From the NCBI RefSeq assembly GCF_020866845.1, contig NZ_CP086594.1:1364001-1428000 (forward strand): 64,000 bases of DNA, in the 5' to 3' direction. The stretch comes from Sphingomonas radiodurans (GTDB lineage Bacteria > Pseudomonadota > Alphaproteobacteria > Sphingomonadales > Sphingomonadaceae). The position numbers and the translations under genes were made by a program. The notes under the pieces were generated by a model. The model saw nothing but the letters and a program-made list of their open reading frames with translations, searched no databases and was not told where the DNA came from. Positions 594-55,848 of the stretch are shown one piece after another (the stretch's first letter is position 1; each line of letters begins with the position of its first letter).

Positions 594-1934
594 TCAGTCC
601 GCCATCCAGTGCTCGAGATTTTCGTGGAAATAGCGCACGCGGCGCTCCTGCCACGCGAGATAGTCGCGCTTGTAGCCGCGCGAATGCAGCCCACGCTGCT
701 GCACTTCCCACACGTCGACGTCCTGCGAGATGCCCGGCCCCATATCGACCTCGCCGGTCTTGCCCTGGATGTGCGGAGCGGGCACCGACACGTCGACCCA
801 TTCGGCCATGCTCGCCGAATAGTAACGCTCGGTCCCCTCGGGGAAGAGCGTCATGTACCACATGTCGAAATTGCATTTCTCGGGATCGGTTTCGTGCGGC
901 CGCCCGCGCAGCCAGATGTTGCCGTCGGGCTTCAGGCTGAACGACAGGTTCGGGAAGATCGTGAAATGCCAGTGATCGGTCAGCTGGTCGTCGTGATAGG
1001 TCGAAAAGTCGAAGCCCTTCTCGGCGCCCTTCTCGCGCTTCGCTTGCTGCAGCGCGGCGCGGATCTCGCCGGTCTTGCCGCCGCGGAAATTCTCGGGGTC
1101 GAGGCCCCAGAATTCCAGCTCGTTCTTCAGATACTCCAGCGTCTCGTTCTCGCCGCCGCGCAATTGCTTGGTCGGGCCGGCGCCGGGCATGAACATCCGC
1201 GCATGGCCCTCTTCATACAGGTCGAACTGGCAGTGGTGATGCGAATATTCCATCACGAACTTGGTCTGCGGATGGACGAAGGGGACGTGATAGCTTTCGT
1301 TGAAATTGTCCTGGATCAGCTTCCAGTTGAAATTGCCCTCGATCGTCATCCAGTGCGTGCGGACCATCTTGTCCATCGGATACGTGTCGATCTGCGCCGC
1401 GATCGGCCCGAGGAAGTCGCGCAACGGCTTGGCCTGGTCGTCCATGTTGATCCACACGAACCCCGCCCAGGTCTCGCATTTCACCTCGACCATGTTGAGC
1501 TTGCCGCACGGTGATCCCTGGATGAAATCCGCCTCGTCGGGCACTGTCTTCAGCTTGCCCGCGAGATCGTATGCCCAGCCGTGATACGGGCACACCAGCC
1601 GCTTGGCATTGCCCTGTGCCCCGACCACCACCGGCATCCCGCGATGCTGGCACACGTTGTAGAATGCGCGCGTCGTATCGTTCTCGCCGCGCACGCATAC
1701 GATCGTCTCGGGGCCGAAATCGGCGGTGAACCAGTCGCCCTGCTTCTTGAGCTGCGCGGTCAGCCCGGCGATCTGCCACGTCTTGGTCCAGATCTTGTCC
1801 CACTCGCGATCCGCCCATTCCTTCGAGAAATAGCGATCGGGCGTGATCGGCGTGTTGCGGAACTCGGGCTCGCGGAATTTCGACATGTCGGCGCGGGGCG
1901 GCGCCTCGTCGGGGCGATTGATGACGGTGGCCAT
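594..1934 (-). CDS. Rieske aromatic-ring-hydroxylating oxygenase, alpha subunit (Rieske 1)
   Basis: A 446-residue protein with the full Rieske oxygenase layout. The 2Fe-2S ligands are Cys95, His97, Cys115 and His118 (CQHRG and CPYHGW). The mononuclear iron site shows Glu213, His216 and His221 in an E-x2-H-x4-H pattern, and a late acidic block (SQDVDVWE) should supply the third ligand. A Glu stands where naphthalene dioxygenase has the bridging Asp205. It would add one or two oxygens to a substrate using electrons from a ferredoxin. AAGGAGAG lies 8 bases before the ATG. It is the last gene of the minus-strand run TonB receptor, Rieske 2, three SnoaL-like proteins, Rieske 1, with a 27-base gap to the SnoaL gene upstream. 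The family is certain; the substrate cannot be deduced. Confidence 0.93.
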   Translation of the reverse strand: MATVINRPDEAPPRADMSKFREPEFRNTPITPDRYFSKEWADREWDKIWTKTWQIAGLTAQLKKQGDWFTADFGPETIVCVRGENDTTRAFYNVCQHRGMPVVVGAQGNAKRLVCPYHGWAYDLAGKLKTVPDEADFIQGSPCGKLNMVEVKCETWAGFVWINMDDQAKPLRDFLGPIAAQIDTYPMDKMVRTHWMTIEGNFNWKLIQDNFNESYHVPFVHPQTKFVMEYSHHHCQFDLYEEGHARMFMPGAGPTKQLRGGENETLEYLKNELEFWGLDPENFRGGKTGEIRAALQQAKREKGAEKGFDFSTYHDDQLTDHWHFTIFPNLSFSLKPDGNIWLRGRPHETDPEKCNFDMWYMTLFPEGTERYYSASMAEWVDVSVPAPHIQGKTGEVDMGPGISQDVDVWEVQQRGLHSRGYKRDYLAWQERRVRYFHENLEHWMAD

Positions 1935-1961: not shown

Positions 1962-2495
1962 TCAGACGGCGGCGTGGTTGCTGAAATGGGCGTACGAAAG
2001 ATCGGCCGCGCCGCGCTCGCCAAAGGCATAGTCCGGCAGCGACGCGCGATCCCAGATGTCGGACGCGCCGGCGACCGTGCTCCAGTCGTACACGGCGTGG
2101 CGATGTGCGATCCGCCACGCGCCGTCGCGCCGCTCGAACCGGTCGAGGTAGCGCCCCGCGGCAACCATGAAGCGCTCGCCCTCATCGCCCGGGAGCACAT
2201 GATGCGCGATGAAATAACTCTCACCCTGCGCCCGATCGCCGTCGGTCTCGATCAGCACATTGCCGATCATGTGCTGGGTCCGCCGCATGCCCTTCAGCAC
2301 TTCCATCACCCACGGCACGAAGTCGTTCGCGGTGCCCTTGAAGCTGCCATGGTCGTCGGTCGCGTCGGGGTGGAATACGCGCCCCACGAGGTCCGCGTCG
2401 CACCGATCGATCGCGCGCGCGAGCTTGTGGACCAGCTCTACGCAATCGTTCTTGTCGACAAGGCGTTGCAGGCGCGGATCGAGGGGGTCGCTCAT
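1962..2495 (-). CDS. SnoaL/NTF2-like protein (copy 1 of 3)
   Basis: A 177-residue protein of the SnoaL_4 type in the NTF2-like cone fold. The N-terminal helix carries LARAIDRCDADLVGRVFHPDAT, typical of this group, and the middle shows HMIGNVLIE followed by GRYLDRFERRDGAWRIAHR, the usual final strand pair. The fold serves dehydratases and isomerases and also the small beta subunits of Rieske dioxygenases, which have the same length. It is the third of three tandem relatives between two Rieske genes. It could be a beta subunit, a lyase or hydratase acting on the oxygenation product, or part of a mixed hetero-oligomer. The fold call is strong and the role is open. Confidence 0.85.
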   Translation of the reverse strand: MSDPLDPRLQRLVDKNDCVELVHKLARAIDRCDADLVGRVFHPDATDDHGSFKGTANDFVPWVMEVLKGMRRTQHMIGNVLIETDGDRAQGESYFIAHHVLPGDEGERFMVAAGRYLDRFERRDGAWRIAHRHAVYDWSTVAGASDIWDRASLPDYAFGERGAADLSYAHFSNHAAV

Positions 2496-2501
2496 TGTTG
2501 G

Positions 2502-3023
2502 TCAGGCTCCCGTATAGGATGGATCATCGGGCACCCGCGCGCCGCGCCGCTGGAGCCCGCCGTACAGCGAGCCCTCCCAGGCGGCGGTCGAGGGCGTGTT
2601 GCGGTTCCAGTCGAGCACGTAGCGGCGGTGCGCGATGCGCCACTCGCCACCGCGCTTTTCGAGCTGGTCGAGATAGCGGCCGCCGACCTCCATCTCCTCG
2701 GGTCCGGCGTCGCCGTCGATCTCGTGATAGGCGCGGCAATAGGTCTCGGCAGTGGCGCGGTCGCCGTCGATCTCGATCAGCATGTTGCCGAGAAAATGCT
2801 GCGTCCGCCGCATCGCAGCGAGCGCCACGACCACCGAACCCGACCAGTCGCCCGCGTCGCCGGCCCCGCTCCCGTAATCGGCAATCGCCCCCGGCCACCA
2901 CACCGCGCGCAGCACCGCCTCGTCACAGCGATCGATCCCGCGCGCGTAGCGGCATAGCACGTCCTGGATCGCCAGGCGGTCGGCAAGCGCGGCAAGGGCG
3001 GCAAGGGCGGCAAGATCGCTCAT
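2502..3023 (-). CDS. SnoaL/NTF2-like protein (copy 2 of 3)
   Basis: A 173-residue SnoaL_4-type protein related to both neighbours: CRYARGIDRCDEAVLRAVWW near the N-terminus, then HFLGNMLIEIDGDRA and GRYLDQLEKRGGEWRIAHRR. It differs from copy 1 in having WWPGA where copy 1 has FHPDA, so the acidic residue after the conserved proline is lost. The N-terminus contains three exact copies of a 9-base unit encoding Leu-Ala-Ala. Its ATG overlaps the stop of copy 3 by 4 bases, which suggests translational coupling, and 6 bases separate its stop from the ATG of copy 1. As with its neighbours, it could be a Rieske beta subunit or an NTF2-fold enzyme; the sequence does not decide. Confidence 0.85.
   Translation of the reverse strand: MSDLAALAALAALADRLAIQDVLCRYARGIDRCDEAVLRAVWWPGAIADYGSGAGDAGDWSGSVVVALAAMRRTQHFLGNMLIEIDGDRATAETYCRAYHEIDGDAGPEEMEVGGRYLDQLEKRGGEWRIAHRRYVLDWNRNTPSTAAWEGSLYGGLQRRGARVPDDPSYTGA
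2988..3014 (-). repeat. Three tandem copies of a 9-base unit inside a gene
   Basis: The coding strand reads CTTGCCGCC three times, with a near match in the last unit, directly after codon 3 of the second SnoaL-like gene. It keeps the frame and encodes a Leu-Ala-Ala repeat. Such a tract can change copy number by slippage without a frameshift. Confidence 0.7.
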
Positions 3024-3526
3024 CGCACCCGCATCTCGTCACGCCGGCAGCTGAGGTCGTGCGGCGCGCGCGCACCGAGCGGAAAGCCCGCCCCGTCGCT
3101 CGTCGCCGGCTCACGGCGCACCCAATCGACCAGCTCGCTGCGATGCGCGATCTTCCACGTCGCCCCGCGCCGCTCGTAGCGATCGACATAGCGCCCCGCC
3201 ACGAACAGGTCGGCGTCCGCGCCATCCTCCACCAGCCGATGATGCGCCTGGAAATAGACCTCGCCGAACGCCGTATCGGTGCCCTCGAAGTCGATCCGCA
3301 CTTGACCGATCATGTGGTGGTTCGCCGCATGCGGCGTCAGCACGCCTTGCGCGAAGGCGACGAAGCCGTCCGCATCGCCGCGATAGCCGTCGCCATAATC
3401 GGTCGTCGCATCGTCGTGAAACACCGACCGGTGCAGCGCCGCGTCGAGCCGATCCTGCCCGCGCATGTAGTCGCAGACGAGATCGTAGATCGCGTGCCAG
3501 CTTTCGAGGCGGTCGATCCGATCCAT
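3020..3526 (-). CDS. SnoaL/NTF2-like protein (copy 3 of 3)
   Basis: A 168-residue SnoaL_4-type protein and the first of the three to be transcribed. It shows CDYMRGQDRLDAALHRSVFH followed by DDATTDYGDG, then HMIGQVRIDFEG and GRYVDRYERRGATWKIAHR. The DDA...DYG acidic block is intact here, as in many members with catalytic activity, and is modified in copy 2. The gene starts 4 bases after the stop of Rieske 2 and its own stop overlaps the next start by 4 bases, so Rieske 2 and copies 3 and 2 are probably made together. A role as the small partner of Rieske 2 or as a dehydratase or isomerase acting next is inference from position. Confidence 0.85.
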   Translation of the reverse strand: MDRIDRLESWHAIYDLVCDYMRGQDRLDAALHRSVFHDDATTDYGDGYRGDADGFVAFAQGVLTPHAANHHMIGQVRIDFEGTDTAFGEVYFQAHHRLVEDGADADLFVAGRYVDRYERRGATWKIAHRSELVDWVRREPATSDGAGFPLGARAPHDLSCRRDEMRVR

Positions 3527-3530: not shown

Positions 3531-4889
3531 CTATGGCCGCCCCAGATAATCGTCGATCGTCTGGTGGAAGCGCCGGATCCGCGCCTCCTGATAATTGCCC
3601 AGCGTCTGCCCGCGCTTCGCCGATGCCTGGAAGCCGCGATATTGCATCGCGAGATTGTCGGTATCCTGGTCGTACACTGCGCCCAGCCCCGGGTTCATCC
3701 CCGGCGCATCGGCATAGGATTGTTCGGCCGCCACTGGGATCGGATCGGGCGGGTAATCCATCGGCGTGCCCTCGGGCACCAGCTTCAGGAACATGAGGTC
3801 GAACAGTGTCCGCCCCGGGTCCATCCCGATCGGACGGAAGCGATAGATCATCGGCAGCGACACGCCGGGGAACAGGCACATGTTCGGGAACAGGTGATAT
3901 TCGATCGAATCGAGCATCTCGCTGTCGGAATAATCTGCCAGATCGACCCCCGTCTCCGCGCCGATCTGCGCGCGCAGCTTCTCCGCCGCCACCGATCGCG
4001 CGGTGCGCCCCTCGGGCACCAGCACGCCATCGACACGCATCTTGTCGAGGATCTCCTGCTGCGTCTGCGCCTGCGTATAATGCGGGCTCGGCGTGCCGAT
4101 CGTATGGACGAAGCGCGTCACATGATCCGAAAAGATGTCGTAATTGGCATTGGCGTCGCCCGCCGTCGCCAGTCCCTGCGCGTGCGTTTCATAGACGTGA
4201 TACGCCTCGAGGAACGCCTCCTGCGCCGCCTTCCAGTTCGTCGGCAGCTCCTTCTGCAGGTGCAGCGAAACGCGGCGGTTCGCGAGATCCCAGCGCCCGC
4301 GAAAATGCTCCGCGAGCGGGCCAAGCTGGTCGGCGAGCGGCGCGGCCGCGGGATCCATGTTGACGAAGACGAACCCGCCCCACGTCTCCACCTTCACCCG
4401 CGGCAACGCATATGCTTCGTCGGTGACGTGCGGGAAATCCCAGCGGCACGGCACGTTCTTCAGCCCGCCCTCGAGCGTCCAGCTCCAGCCGTGGAACGGG
4501 CAGCGCAACTCGGTCGCCGCGCCGCTCTCGTTCGACCGCTTCAGCTGCGTGCCGCGATGCAGGCAGGCATTCGGAAAGGCGCGGATCGCCATATCGTCGC
4601 CGCGCACGATCAGCACCGAATGCCGCCCGACATCATATGTCAGCCAGTCGCCGGCCTCGAGCAGATTCTCCTCGCGGCACACCCATTGCCAAGTGCGCGG
4701 CCAAAGGTGAGTCATCTCGCGCTCGAAGAACGCCGGCGAGACATAGCGATCGTAGCCGATGTCCTCGTCACCGAGGAAAGCATAGCTCTCGGCGACCAGC
4801 GCGTCGGGCACGTGCCAGCCATCGGCTAGGATGATGTCGCGCGCCGCCGGGCCGGGGCAACGTGCATGTCCTGGATCGTCGAGCGCCAT
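3531..4889 (-). CDS. Rieske aromatic-ring-hydroxylating oxygenase, alpha subunit (Rieske 2)
   Basis: A 452-residue oxygenase alpha subunit. The Rieske ligands are in ACLHRGTQL and RCPFHGWSW, and the iron site is in EAFLEAYHVYETH (Glu, His, four residues, His). The late acidic block is VYDQDTDNL. In its central part (PSPHYTQAQ, YHLFPNMCLFPG) it resembles Rieske 3 at 30757-32187 more than the other copies, so the two probably share a subfamily. AAGGAG precedes the ATG. Between this start and the TonB receptor stop at 4924 sits an 18-base motif also found before Rieske 5, so this gene may have its own regulated promoter within the operon. It would need an electron donor; the Rieske ferredoxin at 38724 is a candidate. 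The substrate is unknown. Confidence 0.93.
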   Translation of the reverse strand: MALDDPGHARCPGPAARDIILADGWHVPDALVAESYAFLGDEDIGYDRYVSPAFFEREMTHLWPRTWQWVCREENLLEAGDWLTYDVGRHSVLIVRGDDMAIRAFPNACLHRGTQLKRSNESGAATELRCPFHGWSWTLEGGLKNVPCRWDFPHVTDEAYALPRVKVETWGGFVFVNMDPAAAPLADQLGPLAEHFRGRWDLANRRVSLHLQKELPTNWKAAQEAFLEAYHVYETHAQGLATAGDANANYDIFSDHVTRFVHTIGTPSPHYTQAQTQQEILDKMRVDGVLVPEGRTARSVAAEKLRAQIGAETGVDLADYSDSEMLDSIEYHLFPNMCLFPGVSLPMIYRFRPIGMDPGRTLFDLMFLKLVPEGTPMDYPPDPIPVAAEQSYADAPGMNPGLGAVYDQDTDNLAMQYRGFQASAKRGQTLGNYQEARIRRFHQTIDDYLGRP

Positions 4890-4923: not shown

Positions 4924-7461
4924 TCAGTAACGCACAGTCAGCTGCAGCCGCACGGTGCGCGGAAACGATCCCAGCCCCGAGATGTCACCCGGCACGACAT
5001 TGTTCGTCCCCGTCCCGCTGCCGGTCAGCGGCGCGGTGCCGGCACCGATCAGATAATATTTGTTGGTCAGATTCTTGCCGATCAGCGCGGCTTCCCAGCG
5101 CTCGTCTTCCGATCCCACGCGGATCCCCGCATCCAGCACGGCATAGGCGGCCTGGCGCGTGCGCGGATCGCCGAAGCCAGATCCGATATACGAGCCACTG
5201 TAGCGCATGTCGGCGCTGCCACCGAGCTTCAGCCCCGATCCGGCGACCGTGTCATAGGCAACACCCGCCGTCGCGGTCCATTTCGGCGCGGTCGCGGTCG
5301 GCACGCCGCTCAAATCCTGGAAGTCCGCCGCAACGCCAGCGGGCGGCGCAACGCCTGCGCTCGTCAGCGAGCATCCCTGCGCGATGCTTTGCCCGGCATA
5401 GCAGGCTGTCAGGAAGTCCTCGTAGCGCGAATTGTTGTAGTTCAGCGTCCCCCGCAGCGTCAGCCCCGGCAGCCCGCGCGGCGCGAATTCCAGTTCGGTC
5501 TCGACCCCCTCGGATCGCGCCTTGCCGGCATTGTAGGTGATATAGGCGAAGATCTGCGAGTTGAAATAATCGATCTGCAGATTGGTATATTCGATCGAAT
5601 AGGCCGTGACGTTGAAGCGCAGCTGATTGTCCGCCAGCGTCGTCTTCACCCCCGCCTCGAAGCCACGCCCCTTTTCGGGATTGAACGTCAGGTCGCGCGC
5701 CGGATTGGTCGCCAGTGCCGAATTGATCGCACTGTTGGAAAAGCCCCCCGATTTGTACGCCACCTTGTACGCGCCATAGAGCAGGATATCGTCTGTCGGC
5801 TTCCAGCTCAGCGTGAAATCGGGCGACCAATCGTCGAACGTCTGGTCACCGAACAACGTCCCGTTCACTGCAGCGCTTTGCGGCCGGAAAAGCCCGGTCA
5901 GCGACGCGTTCACATAGGGCTGGGTGAAGTAGCTGTCCTTGGTCTCGTGGGTGTAGCGAACGCCCGCGGTCGCCTCCAGCGTCGGCGCGATCTTCCACAT
6001 CACCTGGCCATAGCCCGACAGCGTCTCGCCATCGGTCCGCGACAGTTTCGCATAGGAGATGAAGCGATTTGACGGCGCTACGCGGGTATCCTCCGACCCG
6101 GCGAACACCACCGCCTGATAGAAATCGCGCCGCGTCTTCTGGTACAGCGCACCGACCATCAAATTAACGGGCGCATCGAAATCGGTCTGCGCGCGCAATT
6201 CCTCGCTGAACGCATTGTAGCTCGCATCCTCGGTCGCCCACACGTCGCCACCGAGGAAGTCGCAGTCGCAGGTGAAGCGATTGTTGTTCCAGTTGTAATT
6301 GGTGATCGACGTCAGCGTGACATTGTCGAACCGGTAACTGGCCGTCCCCGTCACCTGCCACGAGCGGTATTTGTTGTAGAGCTGGCCATCGTCACGCGCG
6401 AACGGCAGCGTCTCCGCCAGCGCCTGCGGCAAATCGTTCTGATATTGGATGAAGTCGCGGCGGCACGCATAGGTCGGGTTCGCCGTCGTCACCCCATTGT
6501 TGCAATTGACCGGCGTGTAGTTCCAGCCGTTGCCGACCGTCTCGTTCAGCGATCCCGATGCCTTCACCGTCATCGTCAGGCGATCGTCTGGCTCGTACTT
6601 CAGCGTGATCCGCCCGATCAGCTCGCGCTCCTGCGGCTGCAGCCGCGCCGCCGCCGGCGCGGTCCGGAGGGTGCTTGCGCCATTGGCCGAATTGATCGTC
6701 GTATAGGGATCGGCAACCGCGAGATTCTCGTAATAGCCGCCCCACATCTTCGATGCGCGGATCGCGACACGAAGGCCTAGCGTGTCGGTGAGCGGCGTCG
6801 AGACGATCCCCTCGCCGTAGAGCTGGTCGGCCCTGAATTCGTATCCGACACGGCCGATATATTCGGCCCGGTCGCCGGGATCGGCGGTGGTCAGCGAGAT
6901 CACGCCCGCGGTTGCGTTCTTGCCGAAGAACAATGCCTGCGGCCCCTTCAGCACCTCGACTCGCGCGAGATCGAAGAAGCCTTCGTTGATGACGCGGCCT
7001 TGCCCGTAATAGACGCTGTCGACGACCACCGCGACCGATTGCTCGATGCCGATCGAGGTCGCGGAGGAGCCGATGCCGCGCATCGTCAGCTGCGCGCCGG
7101 CGCCGTTCGACGATCGCGAGACGGTGAATTGCGGGGTCGCCGCGGCGATCTTCTCCAGGCTCGTCAGGTCGCGCTGCTGGATCTCCTCTGCGCTGATCGC
7201 CTGCACCGAAACCGGAATGTCCTGCACGCTTTCCGCGCGCCGCCGTGCGGTAACGACGATATCCTCGAGCCCGCCCGAGGTGAGCGGCGCCTGCGCCTGC
7301 GCCTGCGGCTCGGCCGCCTGTGCGACACCCAGATCGCCCCCACCAGCCGAGGTGGCCGGGGATGTGCCGGGCTGTGCCTCCTGCGCCAGTGCCGGCGAAG
7401 CCACGGCCATCAGCACCGAGCTCGCAAGCAAGCGAGCACGCGACGAAGCGAACGTCGTCAT
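4924..7461 (-). CDS. TonB-dependent outer-membrane receptor (copy 1)
   Basis: An 845-residue outer-membrane transporter. I place the start at 7461 because GGAGGGG precedes that ATG and a possible earlier ATG at 7476 overlaps this ribosome binding site. The chosen N-terminus is a signal peptide ending near ALAQ. The plug domain follows, with DIVVTARRR, MRGIGSS and VEVLKGPQALFFGKN, then a long beta-barrel with features such as RYTHETKDS and GAYKVAYKSGGFSN, ending in an aromatic residue (VRY) as outer-membrane barrels do. The family imports large or scarce molecules using TonB energy, and in sphingomonads such receptors often sit beside catabolic genes. Here it heads a unit with two Rieske oxygenases and three SnoaL proteins and is divergent from a TetR regulator, so it probably imports the substrate of this pathway. 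Confidence 0.92.
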   Translation of the reverse strand: MTTFASSRARLLASSVLMAVASPALAQEAQPGTSPATSAGGGDLGVAQAAEPQAQAQAPLTSGGLEDIVVTARRRAESVQDIPVSVQAISAEEIQQRDLTSLEKIAAATPQFTVSRSSNGAGAQLTMRGIGSSATSIGIEQSVAVVVDSVYYGQGRVINEGFFDLARVEVLKGPQALFFGKNATAGVISLTTADPGDRAEYIGRVGYEFRADQLYGEGIVSTPLTDTLGLRVAIRASKMWGGYYENLAVADPYTTINSANGASTLRTAPAAARLQPQERELIGRITLKYEPDDRLTMTVKASGSLNETVGNGWNYTPVNCNNGVTTANPTYACRRDFIQYQNDLPQALAETLPFARDDGQLYNKYRSWQVTGTASYRFDNVTLTSITNYNWNNNRFTCDCDFLGGDVWATEDASYNAFSEELRAQTDFDAPVNLMVGALYQKTRRDFYQAVVFAGSEDTRVAPSNRFISYAKLSRTDGETLSGYGQVMWKIAPTLEATAGVRYTHETKDSYFTQPYVNASLTGLFRPQSAAVNGTLFGDQTFDDWSPDFTLSWKPTDDILLYGAYKVAYKSGGFSNSAINSALATNPARDLTFNPEKGRGFEAGVKTTLADNQLRFNVTAYSIEYTNLQIDYFNSQIFAYITYNAGKARSEGVETELEFAPRGLPGLTLRGTLNYNNSRYEDFLTACYAGQSIAQGCSLTSAGVAPPAGVAADFQDLSGVPTATAPKWTATAGVAYDTVAGSGLKLGGSADMRYSGSYIGSGFGDPRTRQAAYAVLDAGIRVGSEDERWEAALIGKNLTNKYYLIGAGTAPLTGSGTGTNNVVPGDISGLGSFPRTVRLQLTVRY

Positions 7462-7539
7462 CCTATCCCCTCCCAAGGCAGCAGGGCCATGTTGCGCCCT
7501 TAGATTGGGAGCACACGTATCACTTTTACTGGGGTGCGC

Positions 7540-24247: not shown

Positions 24248-24562
24248 ATGATCGATATCGAGTTCGTCCAGCCGGACGGCACCCGCGAGCGCGTCTTCAG
24301 CCGCGAGGGCTATACGCTGATGGAAGCCGGGGTGCGCGCCGGCGTGCCCGGCATCCTCGCCGAATGCGGCGGCGCGTGCGCCTGCGCGACGTGTCACGTG
24401 ATCGTCGATCCCGCCTGGGTCGACCGCGTCGGCCCACCCAATTCGATGGAGGAGCAATTGCTCGACCTGGTCGACCTGCGCGACCCCGCCTCGCGGCTGG
24501 CGTGCCAGGTGAAGCTGAAGCAGGCGCTGGACGGACTGGTAGTCCACGTAGCGCCGCGCTGA
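24248..24562 (+). CDS. 2Fe-2S ferredoxin (adrenodoxin/putidaredoxin type)
   Basis: A 104-residue ferredoxin. The cluster ligands are in ECGGACACATCHV (Cys, six residues apart to Cys, then two to Cys) and in the late SRLACQ. An additional Cys lies within the loop (CGGAC). This vertebrate-type class normally delivers electrons to a P450, so the P450 at 10920-12167 is the likely partner; it could also serve a Rieske oxygenase. No ferredoxin reductase is visible in the window. It follows the MDR gene by 4 bases and ends before the large palindrome at 24585. Confidence 0.93.
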   Translation: MIDIEFVQPDGTRERVFSREGYTLMEAGVRAGVPGILAECGGACACATCHVIVDPAWVDRVGPPNSMEEQLLDLVDLRDPASRLACQVKLKQALDGLVVHVAPR

Positions 24563-30756: not shown

Positions 30757-32187
30757 TCAGCCCGCCTTGGCTGCGGCCTTTTCCATGCCCTCGGCGATGA
30801 TCTTGTCGAGCATGTGGTGCATCTTGCGGATGCGCATCTCGGCATAGCGGCCAAAGTGCAGCACGCCGATCTCGGATGCTTCCATGCCCGTCTGCACGTG
30901 CGGCAGGTTGCTCATGTCCTGTTCGAACACCGCCGCGAGCCCGGCCGACATGCCGCTCTTTGGTGCCAGTTCGACCATGCTTTCGTCGACGCCGATCTCG
31001 AACACCGGCGATGGCTTGGGCCGCGGCTTCCCCTTGGGCACGCGCTTCATCATGTAGATGTCCATGATCGATGTCGTGTGATCGTGCCCGTTAGGCCGCC
31101 AGCGATACGTCAGGTTAGGCATAAATCCGGCCCAGAAGCTCATGTGCGGGAAGACGTTGTAGAGCAGCGCGTCGACCATCTCGGCATCCGACGCCGCGGC
31201 ATAATCGTAGCCGTCTTCCGCCGACAGCGTCTTGCGCGTCACTTCGGCCATGAACGTCCGCGCGGTCTCGCCATCGGGCACGCGCATCTCGTCCGCCGAC
31301 GCGCCAGCGCCCGCCGCCGAGCGCGATCCGACGCCCAGCAGCGCCTGGACGATCTCGTCCTCGCTGTAATCGCGCTGGTTGTACGGGCTCGGCACCATCT
31401 GCGCCGAAAATTGCCGCGTCACATAATCCGACAGCACGTCATACTGGCTGTTCACGTCGGCGAGGTACGGCAGCAATTGCGGGTGCGTGGTGATCGCGTG
31501 GTGGCTTTCCATGAACGCCTCGGCCGCGGTCTTCCAGTTGCACGGCACCACCTTTTGCACGTGGAAATGGATGTACCGCTCCTCGTTGGCGTAGCGCGCG
31601 AAATGCTCCTTGATCGGGCCGAGCACTTCGTCGAGCGGCGCCGCATCGCGGTCCATGTTGATGAACACGAAGCCCGCCCAGGTGCCCACCTGCGCCTCGG
31701 GCAGCGACACGTCCTTCCCTTCCCACTGCGGGAAATCCCAGGCGATCGGATTGTCCTTGAAGCTGCCGTCGGTGTTCCACGCGATGCCGTGATAGGGGCA
31801 GCGGAACTCGTTCTTGCACCCGCCCAGCGTCGCCAGCTTGCGGCCACGATGCAGGCACGAATTGTGGAACGCGCGGATCGATCCGTCTTCCTGCCGAGTC
31901 ACCAGCAGCGAACGGCCGGCGATCTCGTACACCGTCGTATCGCCGGCGTTGGGGATCTCTTCCTCGCGGCACGCCATCTGCCAGATGCGTGGCCAGAGAT
32001 ACTTTTCCTCGAGCCGCGCAAAGGCGGGATCGATGTAACGATCCACCGCGATCGGGTCGGTCCCGATGTCGGGCACCGGGCCTTCGCGCAGATGCTCGGG
32101 GATCGGGCGCGTGTCACGCTCGAGGATCTCCTCATACGTTTCCGCAGGATGGCGATCGGATCGAAAAGTCTTGACCTGCACGTTCAT
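30757..32187 (-). CDS. Rieske aromatic-ring-hydroxylating oxygenase, alpha subunit (Rieske 3)
   Basis: A 476-residue oxygenase. Rieske ligands are in SCLHRGRKL and RCPYHGIAW, and the iron site is in EAFMESHHAITTH (Glu, His, four residues, His). The acidic third-ligand block is VFEQDMSNL. It is longer than the other copies, with an extra segment around GSRSAAGAGASADEMRV. ATG 32187 follows GGAGA; the longer frame to 32313 lacks support. It heads the unit Rieske, MFS, CoA ligase, SDR, VOC, ThuA-like, SDR. Its similarity to Rieske 2 suggests related substrates. It carries an operator-like string upstream at 32222-32243. Confidence 0.93.
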   Translation of the reverse strand: MNVQVKTFRSDRHPAETYEEILERDTRPIPEHLREGPVPDIGTDPIAVDRYIDPAFARLEEKYLWPRIWQMACREEEIPNAGDTTVYEIAGRSLLVTRQEDGSIRAFHNSCLHRGRKLATLGGCKNEFRCPYHGIAWNTDGSFKDNPIAWDFPQWEGKDVSLPEAQVGTWAGFVFINMDRDAAPLDEVLGPIKEHFARYANEERYIHFHVQKVVPCNWKTAAEAFMESHHAITTHPQLLPYLADVNSQYDVLSDYVTRQFSAQMVPSPYNQRDYSEDEIVQALLGVGSRSAAGAGASADEMRVPDGETARTFMAEVTRKTLSAEDGYDYAAASDAEMVDALLYNVFPHMSFWAGFMPNLTYRWRPNGHDHTTSIMDIYMMKRVPKGKPRPKPSPVFEIGVDESMVELAPKSGMSAGLAAVFEQDMSNLPHVQTGMEASEIGVLHFGRYAEMRIRKMHHMLDKIIAEGMEKAAAKAG

Positions 32188-32221
32188 GGCTATCTCCGGC
32201 CCCTCTCCATGAGAGAAACTA

Positions 32222-32243
32222 ACACAATCTGCAAACTTGAAAA
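32222..32243. promoter_or_regulatory. Operator-like string before Rieske 3
   Basis: The plus strand reads ACACAATCTGCAAACTTGAA and then AAGG, 34 bases before the Rieske 3 start. CAAACTTG followed by an A-run also occurs upstream of TetR 2 on the opposite strand at 16103-16124. The gap between 32188 and 32316 holds no gene. A TetR 2 site is the simplest reading; support is similarity only. Confidence 0.35.
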
Positions 32244-32316
32244 GGGCTAACAGTTCGTTTGGAAACGCGCTGCGCTTTTCCGGCACCGCACGCTCGCGTG
32301 CGTGTCCAGGCAAATT

Positions 32317-35409: not shown

Positions 35410-36690
35410 CTATTCCGCCGCCTCCTGCAGCGCCATCTCACCCAGCCGCGGATCGTTCGGCGCGATCCATTCGTCGCCGATCACCGGCACCACCCGCAGC
35501 TCGGGCGGAATGTTCTCGGCGCCGATCAGCGCGTCGGCGGCTTGATGCCAATGGTAGATGCGCGCTTCCTGATAGCTCAGCGGCACACCCGTAAACCCAT
35601 AGCTTTCCTGGCTTTTCTGGATCCAGGTGCCGAACTCGGTATCCTCCTCCAGCACGCTGTTGAGGTAGGAAATGGTCGCATCCCAGAACGCCGGCCGCGG
35701 TCCCTCGCCCCAATCGGGCCCGAACCATCGCACTTCCAGCTTCGATTTCGTCGGTCCGTTCGGCCAGAAGTTGAGGATGAAATATCCGGTCGGCCCAAGC
35801 GGCGAAACCCAGTTGGGAAACAGGTTGTAGCTCTGCGTACAGGTCCGCCCGATCTCGCCTACCGTATTGATTTCAGGGCGTTCGAACTGCCCGACCTTGG
35901 CCGCGCGATAATTCTCGCCTTCCTTGTTTTCCCATCCCGGCGCGACCATCCGGCCGTGCCCATGCGGGTAAAGCGTGTTGACGTTGCGGCGATGATCCAG
36001 CCCCAATGCCACCGTCGTCGGATGGATGTTGGGCACATGGTACACCTCCATGTTCGCCTCCATCGCGATCTTCCAGTTGCAGTCGAGATCCCAGATGTAC
36101 TGGTCGACCAGCCGCGTGTTATCGAACTGGAATTCGGCCCATTCCTCGGCAAACGGCCCCAGCCAATCCGTAAGCGCCGGCGCCGCCGGATCGAAGGTCA
36201 CGAAGATCAGCTTGCCGAACCGCTCGCACCGCACCTGCCGCAGCGACCGGCACGAGAAGTCGAGCCCGTCGAAATCCTCGGCGTCGCGGATCGAGACGAG
36301 CTTGCCCTCGTCGTCATAAACCCAGCCGTGATACTTGCAGGTCATCCGCGCCCGCCGGCCACTTTCCTGCGTCACCACCGGCGCGCCACGGTGGCTGCAC
36401 GTATTGTAGAAGGCGTTGATTTCGCCCGATCTTGCGTGGACGATCACGACCGGCTGACCGGCAGTCTCCCATAATTTGAAGCAGCCGTGCTGCGGCACCT
36501 CGTCCATGTGCGCGGCCAGCAGCCAGCTCTTGCGCCAGACATGCTCGCGTTCCAGCGCATGGAAACGCGGGTCGGTGTAGCGGCCGCCGGGCACGTCGGG
36601 CAGCCGCGGAAAGTCACGCGGCGGCGCCGTGCGCGCCGCCTCGTATCCCATCAGCGCCCGCAGGTTCGCGACCGCGGCCGCGTCCATCAT
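35410..36690 (-). CDS. Rieske aromatic-ring-hydroxylating oxygenase, alpha subunit (Rieske 4)
   Basis: A 426-residue oxygenase. Rieske ligands are in TCSHRGAPV and TCKYHGWVYD, with Lys in place of the usual Pro after the second cysteine. The iron site is in EANMEVYHVPNIHP (Glu, His, four residues, His), and the acidic block is VLEEDTEFG. It ends with an extra 40 residues rich in Ala, Glu and Pro. Its ATG overlaps the stop of Rieske 5 by 4 bases, so the two alphas are translationally coupled, a rare arrangement for two full oxygenases. They may form a mixed oligomer or act in sequence. The 104-base gap to the convergent SDR shows no recognisable element. Confidence 0.93.
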   Translation of the reverse strand: MMDAAAVANLRALMGYEAARTAPPRDFPRLPDVPGGRYTDPRFHALEREHVWRKSWLLAAHMDEVPQHGCFKLWETAGQPVVIVHARSGEINAFYNTCSHRGAPVVTQESGRRARMTCKYHGWVYDDEGKLVSIRDAEDFDGLDFSCRSLRQVRCERFGKLIFVTFDPAAPALTDWLGPFAEEWAEFQFDNTRLVDQYIWDLDCNWKIAMEANMEVYHVPNIHPTTVALGLDHRRNVNTLYPHGHGRMVAPGWENKEGENYRAAKVGQFERPEINTVGEIGRTCTQSYNLFPNWVSPLGPTGYFILNFWPNGPTKSKLEVRWFGPDWGEGPRPAFWDATISYLNSVLEEDTEFGTWIQKSQESYGFTGVPLSYQEARIYHWHQAADALIGAENIPPELRVVPVIGDEWIAPNDPRLGEMALQEAAE

Positions 36691-37904
36691 TCCGCCGCCT
36701 GCGCTTGCGTCTGCGCGGGTGCGAACATCGCGACCAACTCGTCGTCATCCGCCGCGATGATCCGGTCGGTCCATGTGTGGAAAGCCTGCGCCCCGCCCTC
36801 GTTGCGGCCGAATAGCACATATTCCAGCGTGCCATGATCCAGCGCGCGCTGCTGGCGCAGGCCGGTGGCGTAATCCTCGTCCTCGACGACGACCTTCAGG
36901 AACGCGAACTGCCCGTGCGCGGCCTCGATCTGCTCCGCCGTCGGCTTCTTCTCCATTAAATACATCTGCCGCGTCCACGACTCACCAACCTTGTCGCCCG
37001 GCAGCAGCTGCGAGATCATCACCCCGCGTCCGCCGCCGTCGAAGCTCGCGATCGAGATGCACGGGAAGATCGTCCAGACGCCGTTAAGCACCAGATTATC
37101 TGGCCATTCGCCCTCGGGCATCGCGCTCAGCTCGCGCGCCGCACGGTCGGGCGCCACCATCCGCTGGTGCGGCCCCCACGCATGGTAATGCGCGCGATTG
37201 CCGAACGTGCCGTTCGCGTTGAGCGTGTTCTTATGCAGCACCGGCAGATGGTAGAAATCGAGGTAGCCGTCATAGGCGATCTTCCAGTTCGGCCCCCGCA
37301 GCATCCGGCTGTCGAAGAAATACCAGTCCTTGAAGTTGAACAGCTCGAGCAGCGAATCATAGCCGCACAGGAAATCGTCGATGTCGAGCTTCAGCTTGGG
37401 ATCGACGCTGCCGAAGATCAGCCCGGCCCGCTCCGCAACCGGCAACGGCGTCAGGTTGAGGCAGGATTTGTCGACTCGCCCGAAATCGGCGTTTGAGGCG
37501 ATCGCAAGCAGTTCGCCCTCCTGACCGAACGACCAGCCGTGATACGGACACACGAACTTCTTGGCATTGCCAGTTGGCTCGGTGGCGACGTTCGTGCCGC
37601 GGTGGGTACAGCTGTTGATGAACGAGCGCACCACCCCGTCCTGCCCGCGCGCCAGCAGGACGGGAATGCCGGCGACCTCCATCGTCTTGAAATCGCCCGG
37701 TTCGGGCAGCTCGCACGACGGCGCCAGCATCAGCGGCAGCCGACGGAAGATGCGATCGACTTCCAGTTTGAACCGTCCATCGTCGGTGTAATTTTTCGCC
37801 GGCACCTTCAGAACATCGTCGACCTGCTCGAACGTATTGTCCCGCGCGTGCTGCACGCTGTGACGCATGACTCGGGCGATATCGGCGTTGTGCATGGCGG
37901 TCAT
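36687..37904 (-). CDS. Rieske aromatic-ring-hydroxylating oxygenase, alpha subunit (Rieske 5)
   Basis: A 405-residue oxygenase. Rieske ligands are in SCTHRGTNV and VCPYHGWSF, and the iron site is DGYLDFYHLPVLHK with Asp, His and His in the standard spacing; Asp here matches the naphthalene dioxygenase bridging residue, unlike the Glu in the other four copies. The acidic block is VVEDEDYATG. AGGAGA lies before the ATG at 37904. The 18-base operator-like motif shared with Rieske 2 is at 37924-37941. It is followed by Rieske 4 with a 4-base overlap and preceded by an SDR and a Rieske ferredoxin on the same strand. The ferredoxin is the likely electron source. Confidence 0.93.
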   Translation of the reverse strand: MTAMHNADIARVMRHSVQHARDNTFEQVDDVLKVPAKNYTDDGRFKLEVDRIFRRLPLMLAPSCELPEPGDFKTMEVAGIPVLLARGQDGVVRSFINSCTHRGTNVATEPTGNAKKFVCPYHGWSFGQEGELLAIASNADFGRVDKSCLNLTPLPVAERAGLIFGSVDPKLKLDIDDFLCGYDSLLELFNFKDWYFFDSRMLRGPNWKIAYDGYLDFYHLPVLHKNTLNANGTFGNRAHYHAWGPHQRMVAPDRAARELSAMPEGEWPDNLVLNGVWTIFPCISIASFDGGGRGVMISQLLPGDKVGESWTRQMYLMEKKPTAEQIEAAHGQFAFLKVVVEDEDYATGLRQQRALDHGTLEYVLFGRNEGGAQAFHTWTDRIIAADDDELVAMFAPAQTQAQAAE

Positions 37905-40024: not shown

Positions 40025-42079
40025 TCAGGCCGCCATCATCTCCGCGATCTTGGCAGACAGCGCTTCGATTGCGAACGGCTTGGTGATCATCCCCATGCGC
40101 GTCCCCAGGAAGTCCGCCCGGATCGCCGCATTCTCCGCATAGCCGGTGACGAACAGCACCGGCAGCTCGGGCCGATGCTCACGCGCAATCTCCGCAAGCT
40201 GGCGGCCGTTCATGCCCGGCAGTCCCACGTCGGACACCAGCAGGTCGATGCGCCGCCCCGAGCGGATGATCGGCAGCGCTGCGTCCGCGTCACCCGCCTC
40301 GAGCGTCTTGTACTGCAGTTCCTCCAGCACCTCACGCACCAGCAGACGAACCGAGGGATCGTCCTCCACCAGGAGCACCGTCTCGCCACCACCTTCATGC
40401 GTGATCGCCTCGGCGGCGGGATCAGCCACAGCCGCATCCCCGTTGGCGACCGGCAGGTAGATCTTCACTGAAGTACCGACACCGACGTCACTATGGATCC
40501 GCACGTGCCCACCTGACTGGCGCGCGAATCCATAGACCATCGACAGGCCAAGCCCGGTGCCCTGCCCGGTCGGCTTGGTGGAGAAGAATGGCTCGAAAAC
40601 CTTCTCGATCATCTCCGGCGGCATGCCGACCCCGGTGTCTGACACCGCGAGGATGACGTATCGCCCCGGCGCCACGTCTGACTGCACGGCCGAATAGTCC
40701 TCGCTCAGGTCGGCGACTCTGGTCTCGATCGTAAGCTGGCCGCCGTTCGGCATCGCATCGCGCGCGTTGATGACCAGGTTCAGCAGCGCATTCTCGAGCT
40801 GGTTCGTATCCGCGACGGCGAGCGGCAGCCCGTCGCTCGGCACAACCCGCAGCGCAATGTTTTCGCGCACCGATTGCTGCAGCAGATCCTCCAGCCCGAG
40901 CGCGAGCGCATTCACGTCGACCGGCTTCGCATCGAGCGACTGGCGCCGCGAGAAGGCGAGCAGCCGTCCGGTCAGCGCGGCGGCGCGCTGCGCCGAAACG
41001 GCGGCTGCATCCATGAAGCGTTCGAGATCGTCGGTCCGCCCACTCGCCAACCGCCGCTTCATGATGTCCATCGCGCCGATCACGCCGGTCAACATGTTGT
41101 TGAAGTCGTGCGCGATGCCGCCCGTCAACTGCCCGACGGCCTCCATCTTCTGGCTCTGGCGAAGCGCCGCTTCGGCGGACGAGCGGATCTCCATCTCGGC
41201 CTTAAGCTCCGCGGTCCGCTCGGCCACGCGCCGGGCAAGCTCCTCCTCGATCTTCTTGCGATCGGTGATGTCCATCGCGAACACATGAAAGCCATCGACC
41301 GTGCCGTCCGCTGCGCGACGCGGCAGATACCGAATCTCGGCATCCCGCCGGCGGCCGTCTCGGTGGGGCATGGCGCGTTCGATATGCACCGGCTCTCCCG
41401 CAAGCGCGCGCGTGATCTCGGCCTCTCGGACGGCAAAGGCATCTTCACCTAGCACGTCGCGCACATGCCGCCCTACAACTTGGCTGGGCGTAAGATAGAA
41501 CCAGTCCTCATAGGCACGGTTGGCAAAGCGATAGCGACCGTCGCGACCGACGAAGCCGATGATCATCGGCAAGGTATCCGCAACAACGCGCAGTTCCGCT
41601 TCGCTCGCGGCCAGCGCGGCGCGACTCCGCTCCAGCTCCACCATACGATCGCGCGTTTCGAACTGGCGCTGTCGTGCCCGCATCGCCGATGCGGTAGCGC
41701 TGATCAGTGATGCCAATCCGAGCGGCCGCTCGAGCACGATCGTGTTGCCGGTAAGATCGAGCAATTTTGCGCGCAACGCATCCGACGAGCTGCGCTCGCC
41801 ACGCTGGCGAGCGGCGAGCAGGATGAACGGCACGTCCGACCAACTCGGCTGCGCCGCCAGCCGAGCCCGCAGCGTATCGATCCCTGCGCCAAGCGCCTCT
41901 TCGGTCAGCATGACAACGCCGACCTCGTCGTCCAATGCCGCCGCAACTGCTTCCAGCCCCGCGCAATCGTGCGCATCATAATGCTGCTCGCGAAGCAGGC
42001 GTACGACCGACTCGGCGTCCCGGCCGTAGGGCGCGGCGACGAGCACCTTCCGGCCTTCGGCGGCGTCCTTATTCGGCAA
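40025..42079 (-). CDS. Hybrid sensor histidine kinase / response regulator with PAS domain
   Basis: A 684-residue cytoplasmic kinase without membrane segments. Order: a receiver-like N-terminal domain (about 10-130), a PAS domain with its C-terminal motif (about 155-285, including [13 protein letters not shown]), a coiled linker, a dimerisation domain with the phosphorylated His324 in GIAHDFNN, an ATPase domain with [20 protein letters not shown] and [12 protein letters not shown], and a C-terminal receiver with Asp617 in [12 protein letters not shown]. The HDFNN motif is typical of HWE-unlike, NtrB-like kinases. Its start overlaps the end of the KaiC-like gene by 11 bases, so the two are co-expressed. 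The input is cytoplasmic and may depend on the KaiC-like partner. No separate output regulator is seen beside it. Confidence 0.92.
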
Positions 42080-43568
42080 CGAACCGGTCTTCCATCAACG
42101 GCGCCCGATCGCCGGTATATTCAGGCGTACCGGTCAGGACGCCGCGGAAGGCCACCAGCGGCTCGCCGACGCGCAGGCCTTCTGCATCAATGCGGAATTC
42201 CCGAATCGCATCCTCATGCGGCCCAGCGCGGTTTTTCAGCACGGAGATCGCCTTGCGGATCCGGCCCTCCGCCTCGAAGAAGCGCAGCAGCAATACCGCA
42301 TCGGCGATGTAGGAGATGTTGAGATTGGTCGGCATCGTTCCCAACAGGCCCTGCTGCGGGTTGACGATGAAGGTCACGACTCCCTGCTGGTTAAGGTACG
42401 ACAAGAGCTCGTGGAGCTGCAGGATCAGTTGCTGCTCCTGCGGCATCGCGGCGAGATAGCCGTTGAGGCTGTCGATCACGATCATCCGCGCGCCGCGACT
42501 TTCCACCTGATCGCGCACTCGCTGCGTGAACTCTCCCGGCGACAGTTCAGCCGGATCGACCTGCTCGACGACGAGGCAGCCGGAGTCGATGTGCTTCTGG
42601 AGGTCGAGGTTGAAGGCAGCAGCCCTGGCCAGCAGCGTGCCGATCCGTTCGTCGAATTCATAGATGACGGATGGCTCGCCGCGCTCGCAGGCTGCGTGAA
42701 GATACTGCAATGTGATGGTGGTCTTGCCCGTTCCCGCAGGACCCGTGACCAACGTGCAAGTTCCGCGCAGCGGCCCACCACCGAGCAAACGGTCGATCTC
42801 GACCACACCACTCGCCACCGGATCTCCAATGAAGGGGGCGTGATGGTCGGACGCGACCAGGCGCGGATAAATGTCGAGACCGCCCTTGCGGATGTTGAAA
42901 TCGTGGAAGCCAGCAACGAAGTCGATGCCGCGCAGCTTCTGAACCTGCAGGCGCCGGCGCGCAGCGCCGAAGTCGAGCGTCAAGCGCTCCAGCGTGATGA
43001 CGCCGTGACACAGGCTGTGCAACTGCGTGTCCGAACCTTCCTTAGAGGCTGTAAGATCGTCCACCAGCAGCACAGTCGTTTTCCGCCCCGCGAAGAACTG
43101 CTTCATCGCCAGCACTTGCCGCCGGTAGCGCAACGAATCCTGCGCCAGCAGGCGTAATTCGGACAGGCTATCGAACACGACCCGGCGTGGCTGCACACGC
43201 TCAACTTCGGCTTCGATCAGTCGGATCGTCTCGCTGAGTTCCATCTCCCAGGGATACAGAATTGACTGCTGTCGGCCTTCGCTCAGCACTTCTTCGGCGG
43301 CGTTGAGCTCGAACACATCGAAGTCGTCGATGCTCCAGCCGTGCGAGGCCGCCACGACGGCCAGCTCTTCGCGCGTTTCCGATAACGTGATGTAGAGCGC
43401 TTTCTCGCCACGCCGGACGCTCTCGCGCAGGAACTGCAGCCCGAGCGTGGTCTTCCCCGATCCGGGCGCGCCTTCCAGAAGATATAGGCGATGTGCGGGC
43501 AGCCCGCCGTGCAATATACGATCGAGACCGTGATTGCCGAACGGCAGCTGAGCAGCTTCTTCCATCAA
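42069..43568 (-). CDS. Two-domain KaiC-like ATPase
   Basis: A 499-residue protein with two RecA-like KaiC domains. Walker A motifs are GAPGSGKT at 33-40 and GPAGTGKT at 276-283; Walker B strands are VVFDSLSEL and MIVIDSLNGYL. Glutamate clusters lie after the second strand of each domain (SETREE, YEFDER). Aligned by eye to cyanobacterial KaiC, the phosphorylation segment reads PTNLNISY: Thr426 and Ser431 positions are kept (Thr414, Ser419) and Thr432 is Tyr420. It has no KaiA or KaiB gene beside it. It overlaps the hybrid kinase gene by 11 bases, a pairing seen in other proteobacteria, where it probably acts as a sensory ATPase switch. The 150 bases upstream are promoter region. Confidence 0.92.
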   Translation of the reverse strand: MMEEAAQLPFGNHGLDRILHGGLPAHRLYLLEGAPGSGKTTLGLQFLRESVRRGEKALYITLSETREELAVVAASHGWSIDDFDVFELNAAEEVLSEGRQQSILYPWEMELSETIRLIEAEVERVQPRRVVFDSLSELRLLAQDSLRYRRQVLAMKQFFAGRKTTVLLVDDLTASKEGSDTQLHSLCHGVITLERLTLDFGAARRRLQVQKLRGIDFVAGFHDFNIRKGGLDIYPRLVASDHHAPFIGDPVASGVVEIDRLLGGGPLRGTCTLVTGPAGTGKTTITLQYLHAACERGEPSVIYEFDERIGTLLARAAAFNLDLQKHIDSGCLVVEQVDPAELSPGEFTQRVRDQVESRGARMIVIDSLNGYLAAMPQEQQLILQLHELLSYLNQQGVVTFIVNPQQGLLGTMPTNLNISYIADAVLLLRFFEAEGRIRKAISVLKNRAGPHEDAIREFRIDAEGLRVGEPLVAFRGVLTGTPEYTGDRAPLMEDRFVAE

Positions 43569-48580: not shown

Positions 48581-48696
48581 ATCTATTCCTCTCTCGTATT
48601 CTGTATGGAGAATGTTGTTCTTCCACGCGAATAAACCTTGCCTCACCCGCACGTCGAAGTCACCGTCGCCCCAAATAAATCATGGGAGAGGGCGTC

Positions 48697-50442: not shown

Positions 50443-50447
50443 CCAGC

Positions 50448-51332
50448 GTGGAACCCCTGATTATCGAAGCCGCACTCAACGGCGCGACGCCCAAGGCGCG
50501 GAATCCCAACGTGCCGGTCTCGCCGGAGGAGATCACCGCCGGAGCCCTTGCCGCAATGGAGGCGGGTGCGGCGATCGTCCACACGCACATCGAGCGGATG
50601 GACATGACCGGCGGCGCGGCGGTGGTGCGCTACATGGAAGGCTATGCGCCCGTGCTCGCCGCGCGGCCCGACGCGATCTTGTGGGGTACGGTGGCGACCG
50701 GGCCGGATGTTGAGGCCCGCTTCGGCCACTATCGCGGGCTCGCAGTGGCAGGCGTGCGGATGGGCGCGTTCGATCCGGGCTCGGTCAACCTCGGCACGCA
50801 TGGCGCGAACGGCCTGCCGGGTGCCTCGATCGTCTACGCCACGTCATACCGCGACATCGCCTGGCTCGCCGACCTGCACCACGAGGAAAAGCTCGGCCCA
50901 GCGATCGCGATCTACGAGCCCGGCTGGCTGCGCACCACGCTCGCCTATGAGAAGGCGGGGAAGCTGCCTGCCGGCGCTTTCGTGAAGCTCTATTTCGGCG
51001 GGCGATACAATTTCCTCGATGGCAAGCGCAGCGACGTAACCTTCGGCTTGCCACCGACCGAAAAGGCGCTCGATGCCTATCTTGAGCTGCTCGAAGGATC
51101 GTCGTTGCCTTGGGCGGTCGCGGCGATTGGCGATTGCGTGATCGAGACCGGCCTGGCGAGCCTCGCGATCGCGCGCGGCGGTCACGTCCGCGTCGGGCTG
51201 GAAGACTTCGGTGGCCAGCGCAAGCCGGGCAACCTCGAGTTGATTGCCGAAGTGGTGGCGTTGGCGGCAGACGCCGGGCGGCCGCTGGCTAGCCCGACCG
51301 ATGCGGCGCGCATTCTTGGTTTGCCACGATGA
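50448..51332 (+). CDS. BKACE-family enzyme (beta-keto acid cleavage, DUF849)
   Basis: A 294-residue TIM-barrel protein of the 3-keto-5-aminohexanoate cleavage enzyme family. Zinc-site residues are His45 and His47 in VHTHIE and Glu252 in VRVGLEDF, with EAALNGATPKA at the N-terminus. BKACE enzymes take a beta-keto acid and acetyl-CoA and give acetoacetate and a new CoA thioester. Which beta-keto acid is used cannot be read here; family activities are diverse. It starts with GTG at 50448, 5 bases after the previous stop, in a unit between two amidohydrolases and an IclR regulator. Confidence 0.9.
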   Translation: MEPLIIEAALNGATPKARNPNVPVSPEEITAGALAAMEAGAAIVHTHIERMDMTGGAAVVRYMEGYAPVLAARPDAILWGTVATGPDVEARFGHYRGLAVAGVRMGAFDPGSVNLGTHGANGLPGASIVYATSYRDIAWLADLHHEEKLGPAIAIYEPGWLRTTLAYEKAGKLPAGAFVKLYFGGRYNFLDGKRSDVTFGLPPTEKALDAYLELLEGSSLPWAVAAIGDCVIETGLASLAIARGGHVRVGLEDFGGQRKPGNLELIAEVVALAADAGRPLASPTDAARILGLPR

Positions 51333-51368
51333 ATCAACCTCTCCCCGCCCCACGCACTTTCCCCCTTC

Positions 51369-51390
51369 GTGTCGAGCGCAGTCGAGGCAC
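51369..51390. repeat. Degenerate palindrome inside the gap before IclR
   Basis: GTGTCGAGCGCAGTCGAGGC followed by AC reads as an imperfect inverted repeat (GTG, TCGA on the left; TCGA, CAC on the right). Similar strings are common between sphingomonad genes. It lies in the stretch that would be translated only if the early IclR start were used. Confidence 0.5.
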
Positions 51391-51409
51391 CAACCCCAGC
51401 GGGCATACC

Positions 51410-52177: not shown

Positions 52178-52210
52178 ACACATTCAAAACATAAGCTTAG
52201 GAGAGCCACC

Positions 52211-55845: not shown

Positions 55846-55848
55846 TCC

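Follow-up and report, generated by a model that had tools for sequence, protein, structure and literature searches.

We describe here a block of five genes in a stretch of 64,000 nucleotides of the Sphingomonas radiodurans genome (contig NZ_CP086594.1, positions 1,364,001 to 1,428,000 of the forward strand; hereafter the window), in which three SnoaL_4 genes lie between two genes for Rieske oxygenase alpha subunits. The cassette is real and conserved, and it is composed of known protein families. Sequence comparison and structural modelling suggest that the three SnoaL-like proteins are probably NTF2-fold (SnoaL_4) lyases or dehydratases of the LinA/BaiE type, which would act on the products of two oxygenases that probably work without a beta subunit.

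The genes are all on the minus strand, in the order Rieske 2 (R2), copy 3 (c3), copy 2 (c2), copy 1 (c1) and Rieske 1 (R1) (Table 1). The stop of R2 and the start of c3 are separated by 4 bases, c3 and c2 overlap by 4 bases (ATGA), and the gaps between c2 and c1 and between c1 and R1 are 6 and 27 bases, respectively. All three copies exceed the curated cut-off of SnoaL_4 (PF13577), which is 24 bits, and copy 1 shares 42% identity with copy 2 and likewise with copy 3. A preliminary description of this DNA had reported three SnoaL-like copies between two Rieske genes, related but not redundant. The order, the coordinates, the lengths of 177, 173 and 168 residues, the 4-base gap and the overlap are confirmed, and so is the non-redundancy. 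Since copies 2 and 3 show 42% identity to copy 1 and each of the three is kept as a separate group across genera, the trio is not a product of chance.

The whole genome of 3.68 Mb has six SnoaL_4 matches (E 0.001), three of which are copies 1 to 3. A fourth, more distant SnoaL_4 gene lies about 2.4 kb to the left of the window (L015 15190-15603, i.e. about 1361190-1361603 of G000:C1), where it adjoins an ABM monooxygenase gene and a short-chain dehydrogenase/reductase (SDR) gene. PF00848 (Ring_hydroxyl_A) also has six matches in the genome, and five of them are inside the window; further Rieske alpha genes without a beta gene are at 30757-32313, 35410-36690 and 36687-37904.

The order R2-c3-c2-c1-R1 on a single strand was found in 17 loci, the window included, and in three additional loci the block is present with R1 inverted. 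Cultured relatives with the block include Novosphingobium olei TW-4 (L031) and N. sediminis NBRC 106119 (L029). These and the following linkage counts were obtained with group profiles on the window, on the 77 loci (L016-L092) kept for the copies when a single genome of each species was scanned and on 15 hand-chosen regions, and 74 loci had a match above the score thresholds set in this analysis; a search of 199 genomes of the family yielded further loci. The copies of the 16 other complete loci share 63-87% identity with the corresponding copy in the window, and a match to the TonB-dependent receptor upstream of the block is present in 14 of these 16 (synteny, at least 35% identity). A tree of 181 sequences, in which the labels c1 to c3 were given only at an identity of at least 56% and the rows between 46% and 56% were left out, has one clade each for the 40 c1 (support 0.71), the 28 c2 (0.985) and the 34 c3 sequences (0.987), and the 30 beta subunit sequences form a clade of their own (0.951). 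We take the SnoaL trio to be old and to have been maintained.

Copy 1 travels with R1, and c2 with c3, which suggests distinct steps for them. R1 is present in 41 of the 45 loci that have c1 (of the four loci without it, L047 has a fragment of R1 cut by the contig end), and c3 is present in 38 of the 39 loci that have c2. At 24 of the 28 junctions where c3 is followed by c2 on the same strand, the last letters of the c3 gene are ATGA, in which a start is available for c2; in seven more pairs the adjacent c2 and c3 genes lie on opposite strands, and c2 comes first in three. Parts of the block occur as well, i.e. R2-c3-c2 without c1 (e.g. L058, L061 and L063, which are Caulobacteraceae contigs), c1 and R1 alone in other loci, and a c3-type gene without any of the other four above threshold in 13 loci. 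Genome G140 (L159, L160) has the order R2-c1-R1 and a separate c3-c2 pair beside ferredoxin, E1 and thiolase genes, and in five loci (L048, L049, L050, L164 and L165) an SDR gene stands between c1 and R1. When R1 was taken as the anchor, it was found at an identity of at least 55% in 9 of the 199 family genomes, and in every one of these a c1-like gene lies no more than about 4 kb away; this gene is weak in G127 and is on the opposite strand in four of the nine (G030, G113, G094 and G127).

The preliminary description knew of no named system with three such genes in a row. Among the open-licence papers listed for SnoaL/NTF2 proteins with Rieske genes, this cassette is not described in the titles and the beginnings of the abstracts. 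The notion that three in a row are unique was rejected: in genome G014 a run of three SnoaL_4 genes (L155 7339-9649) lies more than 500 kb away from the sole PF00848 match, and in G008 three SnoaL_4 profile matches lie close together (L154, genes unresolved by the gene caller), with no PF00848 match at E 1e-5. Judged by eye, the members of the G014 trio have signal-peptide-like starts, and a dehydrogenase of the pyrroloquinoline quinone type adjoins them.

The residue patterns of the copies were compared with those of Rieske beta subunits. The copy-type set was made up of 143 sequences that reach 44% identity to one of the copies; rows below this value were dropped, and the three copies of the window are counted in. 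The comparison set consisted of 30 Ring_hydroxyl_B proteins of the same bacterial family, and for 28 of these an alpha gene lies in the 1.5-kb flanks. In the numbering of copy 1, which is used throughout, D30, H75, R115, D118, W127, R132 and D137 are present in all 143 copy-type sequences, H99 in 142 and Y94 in 139. D30 and H75 are found in 37 out of 37 sequences of the copy 2 type, and D30, H75, R132 and Y25 in 58 out of 58 of the copy 3 type. Moreover, a tyrosine five residues before the aspartate, as in the aligned BaiE chain, is seen in 36 of 37 c2 and in all 58 c3 sequences. The beta subunits have near-invariant residues at E25 (29/30), W37 (30/30) and R55 (30/30), which are present in 0, 0 and 1 of the 143 copy-type sequences, respectively; we note that this test was chosen in the present analysis and has no published definition.

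The preliminary description had also stated that copy 2 has lost the acid of a PDA motif. The motif position does read PDA in copy 1, PGA in copy 2 and DDA in copy 3, but it is variable among relatives, with D in only 12 of the 37 copy 2 relatives, and it is distinct from the Asp-His pair, which is kept. The idea that the lost acid makes copy 2 a dead copy was rejected, as copy 2 keeps D30, H75, R132, Y94 and H99.

In the PDB alignments of the family profiles, D30 and H75 fall on the Asp and the His of LinA, and the pair is also aligned with BaiE. The profile of all three groups places a putative scytalone dehydratase (2e-10) and LinA (1.6e-9) above the beta subunit 3eby (9.1e-7). BaiE (7.2e-7) is about level with 3eby; it is aligned over positions 4-134, and 3eby over 69-139 only. 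With the profile of c3 and c2, both LinA (1.9e-10) and BaiE (6.3e-8) are above 3eby (1.1e-5).

Copy 1 was the SnoaL copy modelled, and the fold results hold for this copy. Its AlphaFold model has a mean pLDDT (predicted local distance difference test) of 95.8, and the best match found by VIA-align is LinA, with a Z score of 18.3-18.6 and a root-mean-square deviation of 2.6 Å, 147 residues being aligned. BaiE follows with Z 16.0-16.7 (156 residues), a putative scytalone dehydratase with Z 16.4 and scytalone dehydratase with Z of about 14. There is no beta subunit among the best 50 VIA-align matches, an absence that excludes nothing; in Foldseek the first chain named as a beta subunit is 3eby at rank 31, and the TPADO beta subunit is at rank 37.

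The known enzymes that come closest are all distant in sequence. BaiE, the bile acid 7-alpha dehydratase, has the Tyr-Asp-His arrangement of copies 2 and 3 but is only 14-19% identical. In BaiE these residues are numbered Tyr30, Asp35 and His83; the comparison made here uses the alignment. LinA, the hexachlorocyclohexane dehydrochlorinase, is the best structural match and has the aligned Asp-His pair, but its identity is 17-22% and it removes HCl from a chlorinated substrate. The catalytic dyad of LinA is given as H73 and D25, and LinA type 2 is given a Leu at R129, the position aligned with the invariant R132 of the copies (PMC3507683). BaiE and Hsh2 of Sphingobium sp. Chol11 are referred to as NTF2-like dehydratases (PMC12175502), and Hsh2 is reported to take the 7-hydroxyl off a bile salt intermediate (PMC8540908, PMC12175502). 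According to PMC12997858, the sphingomonad lignin-dimer lyases LdpA and PcfL are catabolic enzymes of the NTF2 family that form stilbenes; LdpA is among the structure matches of copy 1 (Z 14.6), but it has longer chains (232-244 residues) and 18% identity. Hsh2, LdpA and PcfL are thereby sphingomonad precedents for the catabolic use of NTF2-like enzymes.

The oxygenases were studied in the same manner. In a tree of 129 alpha subunits, the 28 alphas that have a beta partner form one clade (28/28, support 1.0), and the R1 group (41 sequences) and the R2 group (30 sequences) are both outside this clade; the other alphas of the tree come mostly from loci fetched for the copies, i.e. the sample of Rieske alphas is uneven. 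The model of R1 (pLDDT 83.4) has the carnitine monooxygenase CntA as its best structural group (Z 31.8-33.6), the identity being 24-25%, and the next group is TPADO alpha (Z 30.5). CntA is not known to have a beta subunit. R1 and R2 probably lack one. C95, H97, C115, H118, H216, H221 and D405 of R1 are invariant in 31 aligned sequences; judged by motif, we take these to be the Cys and His ligands of the Rieske centre and a putative 2-His-1-Asp iron site.

Several observations weigh against the copies being dehydratases, and part of them speak for another possibility raised in the preliminary description, namely that the copies are alternative beta subunits, or a heteromeric beta ring, of R1 and R2, which would then be alpha3beta3 enzymes. 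We regard this as decidedly unlikely. The fold class and the size are shared, and the gene next after that of the alpha subunit R2 is copy 3; TPADO alpha, the second structural group of R1, does have a beta. When copy 1 alone was searched against the PDB, 3eby (3e-5) and the TPADO beta (0.002) came ahead of LinA (0.0074), and Rv3472 outranked all of them. The beta family PF00866 gives copy 1 a score of 26.8 bits, 0.2 bits short of the curated cut-off of 27, or 27.1 bits counting frame neighbours (copy 2 has 21.7 bits, copy 3 no match at E 0.01). The best NCBIfam models for copy 1 are beta subunit models too, at scores far below their cut-offs. A motif in the second half of the protein, which is shared with the betas, lies behind these matches. 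Moreover, the beta subunits carry D30 in 29 and H75 in 20 of the 30 sequences, with H99 in 1 of 30, so the Asp-His pair alone is weak evidence; it is the remaining pattern that separates the families, including the three near-invariant beta residues that are absent from the copies. In the same vein, a beta profile gives 138-227 bits on its own source betas but 6-34 bits on c1-c3, R1 and R2 belong to another lineage than the alphas with beta partners, and the closest structural group of R1 is CntA. The copies are also sometimes apart from the oxygenases: the c3-c2 pair of G140 adjoins a ferredoxin gene in a 14-kb stretch where no alpha was seen, and the SDR gene mentioned above separates c1 from R1 in five loci. 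The search of the whole genome with PF00866 gave no match besides copies 1 and 2.

Other reservations concern the reaction. The characterised enzymes on which the label dehydratase is based show 14-25% identity, and the top PDB match of the three-group profile is 3b8l, an uncharacterised protein titled 'putative aromatic ring hydroxylase'. Copy 1 has Leu at the position of the BaiE tyrosine, and Y is found there in 0 of 48 c1 sequences. The linkage counts are anchored on the SnoaL copies, and the same species may occur twice in them. LinA-type folds also catalyse isomerisation, deformylation and cyclisation. There is a small but real chance that the copies are NTF2-fold isomerases, deformylases, cyclases or epoxide hydrolases that use the oxidised product: the model of copy 1 also matches ketosteroid isomerase, LdpA and MonBI-MonBII with Z of about 14, and NTF2 deformylases of sphingomonads are described in PMC12997858, but LinA and BaiE, both of them elimination enzymes, are the best characterised matches by family profile as well as by structure. 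The tandem layout and the invariant residues common to all copies would also fit plain specificity duplicates, each of which would carry out an identical step on another variant of a single substrate. This is highly improbable given that the copies, at 42% identity to copy 1, have each been kept separately in many genera and that the linkage of c1 with R1 and of c2 with c3 suggests distinct steps. Among the options of the preliminary description, dedicated dehydratases appear to be the best reading, on account of the fold, the invariant Asp-His pair and the family-profile matches to LinA and BaiE.

If the copies are dehydratases, the following course of events can be proposed. One of the two Rieske oxygenases, which may act in either order, would hydroxylate an unactivated carbon of an alicyclic substrate of the coenzyme A (CoA) pathway type. 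The Asp-His pair in the pocket of the partner SnoaL protein would abstract a proton, and water or some other leaving group at a neighbouring position would be lost, so that a C=C bond or an aromatised ring results. That product would then be processed by the second oxygenase with its SnoaL partner. Copy 1 would be paired with the Rieske 1 step, and copies 3 and 2, possibly as a mixed oligomer, with the Rieske 2 step. We infer the pairing of c1 with R1 and of c2 and c3 with R2, as well as the order of hydroxylation and then elimination, from linkage alone; dehydration as the reaction, separate substrates and the mixed oligomer are likewise presumptive.

Indirect evidence that a mixed oligomer of the copies is possible comes from relatives that carry two SnoaL domains in one frame. 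Such single stop-free frames were found in four genomes (L156, L157, L158 and L170; L105 has the gene of L158), and three of the loci, L157, L158 and L170, also contain a Rieske alpha. Asp and His are retained in both domains, and there is an internal ATG close to the beginning of each second domain, which makes a second start possible. It is conceivable but unlikely that c2 and c3, perhaps with c1, form an obligate mixed oligomer with unlike active sites, which works directly with beta-less Rieske hydroxylases in a relay of two rounds of hydroxylation and dehydration. If this were true, the relay would be an oxygen-driven desaturase built from separate enzymes, and the two-domain relatives would be a frozen form of the pairing.

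Table 1. Genes of the five-gene block, two neighbouring genes and the two-domain relatives. Positions refer to the window unless a locus is named.
Feature	Position	Strand	Product	Family or basis
Rieske 2 (R2)	3531..4889	-	Rieske oxygenase alpha subunit, 452 amino acids	PF00355 + PF00848
copy 3 (c3)	3020..3526	-	SnoaL_4 protein, 168 amino acids	PF13577, 82.7 bits
copy 2 (c2)	2502..3023	-	SnoaL_4 protein, 173 amino acids	PF13577, 100.5 bits
copy 1 (c1)	1962..2495	-	SnoaL_4 protein, 177 amino acids	PF13577, 102.4 bits
Rieske 1 (R1)	594..1934	-	Rieske oxygenase alpha subunit, 446 amino acids	PF00355 + PF00848
TonB-dependent receptor, upstream of the block	4924..7476	-		PF00593 + PF07715
Ferredoxin-like gene	24248..24562	+	[2Fe-2S] ferredoxin-like protein	recognised by eye
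Two-SnoaL frame	L157 5336-6481
Two-SnoaL frame	L158 1494-2987
Two-SnoaL frame	L170 8321-9469
Two-SnoaL frame	L156 5589-7163	-

The neighbours of the block in the window include two TonB receptors, a cytochrome P450, the ferredoxin-like protein, SDRs, a ThuA-domain protein and a CoA ligase, and a TetR gene is adjacent. There are also two acyl-CoA dehydrogenases, the best NCBIfam models of which are Pim subunits (IpdE2 is also listed for one), a thiolase of the lipid-transfer type with an OB-fold gene, and the E1 alpha, E1 beta and E2 components of a 2-oxoacid dehydrogenase. As annotated by Pfam and NCBIfam, these genes point to a CoA-dependent route that would take an acid of the alicyclic or the terpenoid/steroid-like kind, and the role of the locus may be the breakdown of an alicyclic acid. 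We do not claim a substrate because the NCBIfam models shown for the neighbours are all below cut-off. A similar gene set is found around relatives of R1 (56%) and c1 (49%) on a plasmid of Novosphingobium resinovorum HR1a, where the c1 relative is about 1.6 kb from the R1 relative and on the opposite strand. The same plasmid also has a pair of a quinol-monooxygenase gene and an NTF2-family gene.

The ferredoxin-like protein has no NCBIfam match at 1e-15. It is a possible electron donor for the oxygenases or for the P450, and the c3-c2 pair of G140 (L160) adjoins its best match. The genes between 17452 and 23221 are tightly packed and comprise E1 beta, E1 alpha, an SCP2-type thiolase, an OB-fold protein, an acyl-CoA dehydrogenase and an E2 acyltransferase domain; no E3 was noticed for this stretch among the Pfam results. 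Three other regions of the window were noted. At 40025-43568 a PAS hybrid histidine kinase gene adjoins that of a KaiC-type ATPase with two matched stretches, at 48682-53956 a BKACE gene and an IclR regulator lie between two amidohydrolase-3 genes, and at 54014-63346 there is a cluster of the exopolysaccharide type, with a sugar transferase, glycosyltransferases, a polysaccharide deacetylase and a MurJ-like flippase.

The analysis thus describes a conserved cassette of Rieske and SnoaL genes in sphingomonads, found in part also in Caulobacteraceae contigs, and gives each copy a likely partner step. It also points to a trap in naming, i.e. SnoaL-like genes that adjoin Rieske alpha genes need not be beta subunits. 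In strain SYK-6, 62 homologues of the NTF2 superfamily are counted in PMC12997858, where the substrate specificity of such enzymes is called unknown; for this reason, linkage of the kind seen here may be one way to assign NTF2 enzymes to their steps.

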